A stretch of DNA of 22,658 nucleotides from a virus, in the IMG/VR virus record IMGVR_UViG_3300046449_000373, positions 1 to 22,658 of that record. One strand, 5' to 3'. The stretch's first letter is position 1. The number at the start of each line of letters is the position of its first letter. Under the pieces are notes generated by a model. The model saw only the letters and a program-made list of their open reading frames with translations. It had not been told where the DNA came from and did not search any database. The position numbers and the translations under genes were made by a program. Positions 7,725 through 21,147 of this stretch are shown in pieces.

Positions 7725-7760
7725 AAGGTTTTTTCCCAATTACGTTAAAAATTTGCCATT

Positions 7761-7796
7761 AAAAAGGCCGCTTACTCATGGCGAGTTAGCGGCCGC
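7761..7796 (-). terminator. Rho-independent terminator after major capsid gene
   Basis: A 12-bp stem with one mismatch, GGCCGCTTACTC (7766-7777) against GAGTTAGCGGCC (7783-7794), has a 5-nt loop. On the minus strand it is followed by TTTTT (complement of 7761-7765). It lies in the 95-bp gap after the capsid gene. A strong partial terminator or RNA processing signal after the capsid gene would raise the capsid:downstream ratio. Confidence 0.8.
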
Positions 7797-7819
7797 TGTT
7801 GTTTCTAAATGCATGCGAG

Positions 7820-19327: not shown

Positions 19328-19381
19328 CCCTAACAGCTTATTGAACGGTTCGACTGATAAAGCCGACCGCTTAAGTTATTG
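19328..19381 (-). repeat. short attC-like site (54 bp)
   Basis: On the minus strand, R'' CAATAAC (19381-19375) and R' GTTAGGG (19334-19328) bound paired arms: AAGCGGTCGGC against GTCGAACCGTT with mismatches and a 6-7 nt loop. It separates the DUF4145 cassette from the rha-bearing segment and lies immediately before the DUF4145 start, as expected of a cassette boundary. Confidence 0.6.
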
Positions 19382-19526
19382 ATTAATATCATCCTACATT
19401 TTCTATGTCTTTGAAGTAAAGCAATTTAATGACTCTTACACTTAAATAAAAAACGTAAATTGCGCGTTAAAAGTGCCAACATCAAATGTAAAGAATAAAC
19501 CTAACAATATCAATATATTAGAGCAA
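19376..19526. repeat. rha-module flank, copy A
   Basis: This 151-bp stretch recurs in the same orientation at 20895-21045 with scattered substitutions and small indels. Shared blocks include ATTTTCTATG/GTTTTCTATG followed by TCTTTGAAGTAAAGCAATTT, then CTTAAATAAAAAACGTAAAT. There is no open frame of note. Positions 19527-19670, between this copy and the rha control region, hold no gene or structure I can name apart from CTTTAGGCAGCAAA (19601-19614), which also recurs in copy B. Confidence 0.85.
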
Positions 19527-19673: not shown

Positions 19674-19719
19674 GTTATCGATAACTCACTTAACTGATAA
19701 CTCATAAGTAAAATTGACA
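19674..19719 (+). promoter_or_regulatory. operator cluster and promoter of the C4-like RNA / rha transcript
   Basis: The perfect 12-bp palindrome GTTATCGATAAC (19674-19685) overlaps AACTCACTTAACTGATAACT (19683-19702). A -10-like TAAAAT (19709-19714) would start RNA near 19721, just before the RNA's first stem at 19723. An alternative is TTGACA (19714-19719) with GATACT (19738-19743), but that start would lose the 5' strand of the RNA's outer stem. A repressor bound at these repeats would cover the -35 region. Confidence 0.5.
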
Positions 19720-19722
19720 AAT

Positions 19723-19829
19723 GCGCCTAAGTGGGGCGATACTAATCGGGCATTGGCAAAATCCAATGCCGGGATTCGTACCCCGCAGTATCTAGGCGCA
19801 ATGTCGCCAGCCTTTAGAGCTGGTTTTTT
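19723..19829 (+). ncRNA. C4 / P4-CI-type antisense RNA with terminator
   Basis: A 7-bp outer stem GCGCCTA (19723-19729) / TAGGCGC (19793-19799) is followed by an unpaired A, like a tRNA acceptor end. Inside are the hairpin GGCATTGG/CCAATGCC and a T-arm-like hairpin with loop ATTCGTA. A Rho-independent terminator, CCAGC/GCTGG plus six T, lies at 19807-19829. The core 19775-19796 is complementary over 18 positions in three blocks to 19895-19914 in the rha leader. P1/P7 C4 and P4 CI RNAs have this layout, are processed by RNase P, and control phage antirepressor or immunity operons. The family assignment is by structure and context. Confidence 0.75.
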
Positions 19830-19833
19830 ATTG

Positions 19834-19987
19834 CGTGACTCGGCGCACCACTACTATGGTGAGCTGGGTGAGGCAGCCATTTGGCTGGCCGCTTCCTAGA
19901 TGCGGTAGTACGAACCTTGCTCAGTTCATCACCCAATGTTTCGTACCAGACGGTGATGATTACTCACGATATCTAGGAGTGTCACCC
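19834..19987 (+). promoter_or_regulatory. structured rha mRNA leader with alternative pairings over the ribosome site
   Basis: Segment 2 (CCTAGAT 19895-19901, GTACGAA 19908-19914) can pair with the C4-like RNA. It can also pair locally with TTCGTAC (19940-19946) and with ATCTAGGA (19971-19978), the Shine-Dalgarno of rha. Additional stems are CAGCC/GGCTG (19874-19887) and TCATCACC/GGTGATGA (19926-19933, 19952-19959). The same frame as rha is open upstream from GTG 19835 and reads TTMVSWVRQPFGWPLPRCG, which resembles the phage Ash family. I regard this as conserved RNA structure or a short leader peptide rather than the rha start. Confidence 0.65.
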
Positions 19988-20572
19988 ATGAACTTACAAC
20001 AGTCTAAAAACTACCCTGCGCAACTGGTCTTTATCAACGGCCAACAAACCATTACCAATTCGCTTATCATTGCCGACTATTTTGGTAAACGTCATAGCCA
20101 TGTTTTAGATAAAATCGAAGCGATAAAACGCGATGCACCAGAAGAATTTACGTCAACCAACTTTTCGGCTAACGTGCAAAATCAACAGGTTGGCACCAGT
20201 CAACGTGATTTAAAGTGTTACCACCTGACCAAAGACGGTTTTATGTTTTTAGTCATGGGTTTTACCGGTGCCAAAGCTGCCGAACTCAAGATCAACTTCA
20301 TTAATGCCTTCAACGAAGCCCAAAAGCGACTTAGCCGCACTCAACACCCGTTTGAGCGTCAGCGCATGATGTTTACATGGGAAGGCGGCAAAATAGTGAG
20401 CTCGCAACCAATACATGATGACCAGTTTGTCACCAGCCGCGATAAATTAGTGCAGTACATGCGCGAACCCCGCTTTTTATCTCTTGAGCAATTGCTAGAA
20501 ATCAGTGAAGCCGCAAACCAACAAATTGCGACATTAGCAAGATTGGCAGAGAAACAAGCCCGTTTACGCTAA
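19988..20572 (+). CDS. Rha-family phage regulatory protein
   Basis: 194 residues from the ATG at 19988, with AGGAG ten bases upstream. The pRha domain is clear: TITNSLIIADYFGKRHSHVL (21-40), then NFSANVQNQQ, YHLTKDGFMFLVMGFTGAKA and FINAFNEAQKRL to about residue 120. The rest is helical and basic. Rha proteins are phage regulators often linked to anti-repression or to interference with growth on some hosts; DNA binding by the N-terminal helix-turn-helix-like part is presumed. This is the only convincing plus-strand gene in the window. It is preceded by a C4-like antisense RNA and followed by a strong terminator, so the module is self-contained. Confidence 0.9.
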   Translation: MNLQQSKNYPAQLVFINGQQTITNSLIIADYFGKRHSHVLDKIEAIKRDAPEEFTSTNFSANVQNQQVGTSQRDLKCYHLTKDGFMFLVMGFTGAKAAELKINFINAFNEAQKRLSRTQHPFERQRMMFTWEGGKIVSSQPIHDDQFVTSRDKLVQYMREPRFLSLEQLLEISEAANQQIATLARLAEKQARLR

Positions 20573-20592
20573 AAATACCGCTAAACGCCCAT

Positions 20593-20621
20593 AAAAATGG
20601 CTACATCAAGTAGCCATTTTT
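20593..20621. terminator. bidirectional terminator after rha
   Basis: The 12-bp perfect stem AAAAATGGCTAC (20593-20604) / GTAGCCATTTTT (20610-20621) has a 5-nt loop with T-runs on both strands. It ends rha and also faces the minus-strand cassette gene at 20646-20852. An identical 40-bp block (20582-20621) recurs at 21091-21130. Confidence 0.85.
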
Positions 20622-20645
20622 GTTTGGTGCCGCTTTAAATTCTTG

Positions 20646-20894: not shown

Positions 20895-21130
20895 TTATTG
20901 ATTAATTCATCCTACGTTTTCTATGTCTTTGAAGTAAAGCAATTTAATGACTCTTTACACTTAAATAAAAAACGTAAATTGCACGTTAAAAGTGCCCGCA
21001 TCAAATATGAAAAACAAACCAAACAATATCAATACATTAGAGCAGCCCTATTTTTCTCAACATAGTCCTTTAGGCAGCAAAAACCACAGTTAAACGCCCA
21101 TAAAAATGGCTACATCAAGTAGCCATTTTT
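20895..21130. repeat. rha-module flank, copy B, lacking the antisense RNA and rha
   Basis: Positions 20895-21045 match copy A (19376-19526). Then TTTAGGCAGCAAA (21070-21082) matches 19602-19614, and 21091-21130 is identical to 20582-20621, the terminator block after rha. Everything between, about 970 bp in the intact module (operators, C4-like RNA, leader, rha), is missing. The terminator stem is at 21102-21130. This accounts for nearly all of the 318-bp gap between 20852 and 21171; no gene is visible in it. Confidence 0.8.
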
Positions 21131-21147
21131 ATGTGAAAACTCATAGG

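Follow-up and report, generated by a model that had tools for sequence, protein, structure and literature searches.

A putative IsrK-C4 RNA switch upstream of a Rha-family gene in a likely Shewanella prophage

The leader of a Rha-family phage gene holds two short sequence motifs that also occur further upstream, with their complements lying between the two copies. This raises the question of which of these segments acts on which, and to what effect on the gene. The locus lies in an IMG/VR virus record of 22,658 bases (the window, that is, the whole stretch of DNA analysed), which has terminase, portal, tape measure, lysozyme and spanin genes. All of the closest whole-genome relatives of the window rha are from Shewanella. 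Taken together with the phage genes, this suggests that the window most likely comes from a tailed Shewanella prophage. An earlier note, made from the sequence alone, had proposed a C4/CI-type system acting on the Rha gene, with TTCGTAC and ATCTAGG in a terminated RNA, their complements downstream and a second sense copy at the rha ribosome site. All of these motifs were located (19775-19978), and the elements we identified are as follows.

19714..19743, plus strand: promoter of the isrK-C4-rha transcript, TTGACA-18 nt-GATACT (sequence signal; start predicted near 19750)
19750..19829, plus strand: IsrK RNA (a1b1/seqA type), about 80 nt, with its own terminator (Rfam RF01394; alignment of 17 relatives)
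19775..19781, plus strand: a1, TTCGTAC, in the IsrK hairpin loop; complement of a', about 95% unpaired in the predicted fold
19790..19796, plus strand: b1, ATCTAGG; complement of b'
19806..19829, plus strand: intrinsic terminator between IsrK and C4, a hairpin (19806-19824) and then six T
19852..19936, plus strand: C4 antisense RNA with three helices (Rfam RF01695; covariation in 22/27 pairs)
19894..19901, plus strand: b' of C4, TCCTAGAT, in a hairpin loop of the fold; complement of b1 and b2
19908..19914, plus strand: a' of C4, GTACGAA, single-stranded in the fold; complement of a1 and a2
19940..19946, plus strand: a2, TTCGTAC, target in the rha leader; complement of a', recurring across loci
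19952..19959, plus strand: GGTGATGA, a possible anti-C4 hairpin; complements 19926-19933, the 3' strand of the helix that closes C4
19971..19978, plus strand: b2, ATCTAGGA; overlaps the rha Shine-Dalgarno AGGAG (19975-19979)
19988..20572, plus strand: rha, 194 aa, Phage_pRha (Pfam PF09669, E=1.5e-26; PHROG 518)

Identity of the two RNAs and of the gene

The terminated stretch scores 62.8 bits with the Rfam isrK model (RF01394, cut-off 50, model positions 1-77), while the segment that follows the terminator and precedes the rha leader scores 67.7 bits with the C4 model (RF01695, cut-off 45, model positions 1-87, the whole model). Because of these placements we take the terminated RNA to be IsrK and the segment downstream of it to be the antisense RNA. 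The earlier note was therefore correct about the type of system and its target gene but had the roles swapped, since the terminated RNA is of the target type. The search with the C4 model that it proposed does give a match above cut-off, but at 19852-19936 and not on the terminated RNA. Likewise, what it described as a complement in the leader is present at 19894-19914, but as part of the structured C4 RNA and not of a plain leader. With the c4-a1b1 model (RF03163) positions 19737-19789 reach only 29.8 bits against a cut-off of 46.7, and on these scores the terminated stretch is filed as isrK rather than c4-a1b1, though the complement that defines the function of the latter is present. No tRNA or tmRNA was called by ARAGORN, and the tRNA-like character earlier attributed to the terminated RNA is limited to a T-arm-like hairpin.

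The other properties of the two families are also found here. As in isrK, the RNA has a promoter and an intrinsic terminator of its own, the latter already given in the earlier note, and these sequence signals, which have conserved spacing, would yield a short RNA. As in C4, a' and b' are complementary to targets both 5' of the RNA and at the 3' ribosome site, so that C4, the middle segment, has two alternative pairing partners, the RNA 5' of it and the ribosome site of rha, in agreement with the earlier proposal. The exact pairing is 7+7 nt between C4 and IsrK and 7+8 nt between C4 and the rha leader (a' and b' respectively), and not the 18 base pairs counted before. The second copy of ATCTAGG (19971-19977) is within b2, and the Shine-Dalgarno that b2 overlaps is 8 nt from the ATG. 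In an alignment fitted to the Rfam model, which favours its structure, the three-helix fold of C4 has 98.3% of cells paired and changes on both sides in those 22 pairs, and 0/500 shuffles were as good. A GGU is found at the start of the C4 helix (19858), and an RNase P cut is predicted just before it from the motif only.

The gene product contains the Phage_pRha domain (PF09669) at 93.2 bits, above the cut-off of 29.9, which places it in the Rha family. In a PHROG search the best match was PHROG 518 (Rha-like), and anti-repressor PHROGs were matched too; this family similarity suggests that the Rha product probably acts as an antirepressor. No solved structures were found among the Rha relatives. 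In the relative G033 a CI-like repressor frame (L220:8388-8888) has a helix-turn-helix and an incomplete S24 domain, the remainder appearing in other frames, and so it does not decide whether induction needs Rha.

Recurrence of the module and a proposed mechanism

The order IsrK-C4-gene was found in 18/20 rha relatives. In the 32 genomes reached via rha relatives, 27 of the 28 isrK matches above cut-off, paired by eye, are directly 5' of a C4 on the same strand. Among 82 distinct C4s, 78 have 7 nt or more of a' matched upstream within the same locus and 79 have this downstream, while with partners from other loci such matches occur in 9.7% (upstream) and 7.8% (downstream). For b' the own-locus matches number 58/82 upstream and 70/82 downstream, against 9.3% and 10.0% with other-locus partners. 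In none of 2000 permutations was any of the four observed totals reached; the permutations are uncorrected for relatedness, and related loci share letters, which raises the permuted match rate. The three-way a/b match is not due to chance, because it is present in 82 distinct loci, among which there are 35 different a cores. Matches of the GGTGATGA type to the C4 closing helix are also longer on average in the own locus than in every one of 2000 permutations. The flanking signals recur as well: of 69 related loci, 58 have TTGAC ahead of the point where isrK begins (3 expected from shuffles), the distance being 35-36 nt in almost all of them, and a run of five T lies within 75 nt upstream of C4, after a1b1, in 74/82 (6 expected).

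The elements, their three-way complementarity and covariation, the promoter and terminator signals and the Rha family of the gene are features of the sequences themselves; the processing of C4, repression by C4, release by IsrK and antirepressor action would follow by analogy with P1/P7 and Gifsy-1. We consider it quite probable, on these grounds, that the window holds an isrK-C4-antirepressor system serving as a prophage immunity switch, in which C4 represses translation of rha and IsrK derepresses it. Transcription from a single promoter would probably often end at the terminator and so produce the 80-nt IsrK, and readthrough would give a longer RNA carrying C4 and rha. C4 would then probably be excised by RNase P, and its a' and b' would pair with a2 and b2, the latter pairing covering the rha Shine-Dalgarno. 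As a result rha would stay untranslated in the lysogen, as would the rha of an incoming phage sharing the same a/b code. IsrK, which bears the a and b letters of the target, would bind C4, either free or within the long RNA, and release rha, the product of which is probably an antirepressor. It is well supported that the module is a member of the known P1/P4/Gifsy-1 immunity switches and not a novel type of system.

Known systems and alternative explanations

The closest comparison is with the isrK-orf45(STnc1160)-anrP region of Gifsy-1 in Salmonella, which scores 79.3 bits with the same isrK model and 69.0 bits with the same C4 model. It resembles the window in the order of its elements, the terminator after IsrK, the heptamer logic of a1, a' and a2, and an antirepressor-like gene downstream. 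The a code differs (TTGGCGT in Gifsy-1, TTCGTAC in the window), as do the downstream genes, and orf45 ends at the anrP start whereas the corresponding frame in the window runs into rha. IsrK provided in trans increases anrP translation about 140-fold (PMC4825925). We mapped the mutations that alter regulation in Gifsy-1 to G28 and G31 in a1 (26-32) and to C159 and C162 in a' (158-164), and the published helix b-I therefore contains the a1:a' pairing. The predicted fold of the window readthrough RNA joins a1 to a' in the same way. The trans effect of IsrK, the position of these mutations and the a1:a' pairing in predicted folds together make it likely that the terminated RNA of the window releases rha, by binding free C4 or by opening the long RNA; the polarity given in the earlier note, with the terminated RNA freeing the gene, agrees with the Gifsy-1 IsrK experiments (PMC4825925). 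Two-strand minimum-energy folding, used to rank C4:IsrK against C4:leader, showed no gain when C4 was combined with IsrK, with a tool that cannot represent loop-loop contacts. Constitutive STnc1160, the C4-like RNA of Gifsy-1, failed to block IsrK-driven growth arrest (PMC4825925), which leaves titration between IsrK and C4 an unproven idea even in that phage.

A variant of the proposed switch departs from it in the route alone. Here IsrK would act mainly in cis: pairing of a1 and b1 with C4 in the readthrough RNA would keep C4 unfolded, the switch would consist in the balance between this state and C4 maturation, and IsrK in trans would merely tip that balance. Pairing of a1 with a' is present in the minimum-energy readthrough fold of the window, as it is in 45 of the 75 loci that could be tested, and the two-state model of Gifsy-1 is supported by native gels and compensatory changes. 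However, conservation of the terminator between IsrK and C4 in most loci (the T run noted above) favours a separate IsrK and trans-activation in Gifsy-1 is large, and we regard a mainly cis route as possible but rather doubtful. A different outcome is reported for the satellite phage P4, which has a seqA-CI RNA-seqC arrangement and in which transcription is terminated ahead of the replication genes (PMC4825925). A mechanism of this type, with pairing of C4 to a1b1 and a2b2 causing early termination of transcription instead of a translation block, would be in keeping with the match of P4 CI to C4 (74.9 bits) and of P4 seqA to isrK (60.8 bits), and with the terminator found between a1b1 and C4 in the window. 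That terminator, however, is intrinsic and upstream of C4, the gene directly downstream is rha and not a replication gene, and the overlap of b2 with the Shine-Dalgarno, so near the ATG, fits a translation block, where P4 terminates transcription. We therefore think a P4-like outcome unlikely.

The window also has an AUG within C4 (19856) that begins an open frame in the same phase as rha, as in L004, and the first AUG of Gifsy-1 orf45 (A107) corresponds to the same conserved AUG at C4 position 5. This might suggest that Rha is made as an N-terminally extended protein, with C4 overlapping the coding region. In the close relatives L002 and L183, however, a stop ends this frame after 16 codons, and rha has a Shine-Dalgarno of its own, which makes an extended Rha very improbable. 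Most loci have only a short frame from this AUG; it extends beyond the start of the gene in just a few, the window and L004 among them, and translation coupling via a reading frame in C4 was rejected as a general mechanism on this account. Activation in Gifsy-1 depended largely on orf45 translation (PMC4825925). Since the frame is short in most relatives, the activation route may differ from the orf45 route.

Returning to the proposed repression of rha translation by C4 and its release by IsrK, the immI region of P1 (a1b1-c4-a2b2) scores 68.8 bits with C4 and has the a1/a'/a2 three-way match, with the a core TTGACAG, and b1, b' and b2 as read from the sequence. Its upstream part is weakly isrK-like, at 35.1 bits, and thus falls below the isrK cut-off, unlike the window IsrK. 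The regulated operon of P1 is icd/ant and not a lone rha. As described in the part of one report covered here, C4 of P1 and P7 is processed by RNase P, with b' covering the ribosome site and a' giving specificity (PMC5320573). The Group 1 C4-like sRNAs of Acinetobacter baumannii, in the same part of that report, share the C4 fold, a GGW RNase P motif and a variable a'; they are processed from longer transcripts, and an IsrK or antirepressor is not described there, whereas the window module is complete (PMC5320573).

Rfam keeps isrK and C4 apart, with isrK outside the C4 clan, and yet in almost all the cases encountered, P4 and Gifsy-1 included, the two belong to a single module. In the searchable literature, outside which much subscription literature lies, both names occur together in one paper; we found no text uniting the two Rfam families as one module, and we make no claim of priority. 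The loci collected here are a large natural set of coded variants, and their 35 a cores are suited to swap tests of the roles of a1b1/IsrK.

Code, gene and orphan C4 RNAs

The a/b code appears, from sequence comparison, to be separable from the rha gene. The window and L002 have 569 of 585 rha bases (97%) identical, yet their a1/a'/a2 and b1/b'/b2 differ together. In L004 the a and b letters are those of the window, with only 533/585 rha bases identical. Modules within one genome mostly differ in code, and of the directed pairs in the genomes examined L167 on L193 alone matched by 7 nt or more for a as well as for b.

Five Shewanella relatives have a second C4 about 165 nt upstream of the module, without an IsrK or a target; the window has no such orphan C4. 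Their positions are:

L007:2621-2701, orphan C4
L018:2619-2701, orphan C4
L010:2623-2705, orphan C4
L085:5627-5707, orphan C4
L008:1176-1256, orphan C4

In all five the letters of the orphan C4 do not fit its own module. Those of L007 and L085 match the targets of L008/L011 (a 9 nt, b 7 nt), that of L018 matches the targets of L009/L188 (8 nt for both a and b) and that of L010 matches L008/L011 by a only, while no clear fit among the sibling modules was found for that of L008. Because shuffled orphan letters gave an equal or better fit at a frequency of 0.002 to 0.05, and because the b letters are widely shared in the group, the fit of orphans to siblings is a lead and not a result. We tentatively suggest that the a/b letters may be a recombining immunity code separable from rha, with orphan C4s in sibling phages reading the codes of other siblings, although we do not consider this the probable case. 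If it were true, the RNA layer would be a small, extensible memory against heteroimmune relatives, and a role for orphan C4s in immunity against related phages can now be framed as a sequence prediction.

C4 matches are far more numerous in the Pseudomonas genomes behind L107, L109 and L117 (19, 16 and 32 per genome) than in the others, and many of these are without an adjacent isrK match. The placement of the module varies: it adjoins the tape measure gene in L007, the C4 and Rha gene lie between tail genes in Aeromonas phage LPM4 (L132), and in the window the module is beyond the lysis genes. The module thus seems to move as a unit. In the window a repeat of about 150 nt upstream of the module (19376-19525) has a second copy at 20895-21044, and the terminator 3' of rha (20568-20626) is repeated at 21077-21135. 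Between these downstream copies the isrK, C4 and rha stretch is absent, and the pair looks like a duplicated cassette from which the module has been lost. The repeat of about 150 nt is also found at two or three sites in each of L002, L004 and L082. Elsewhere in the window, a weak isrD-like match on the minus strand (7760-7813; 27.9 bits, cut-off 37) is probably an ordinary terminator hairpin.
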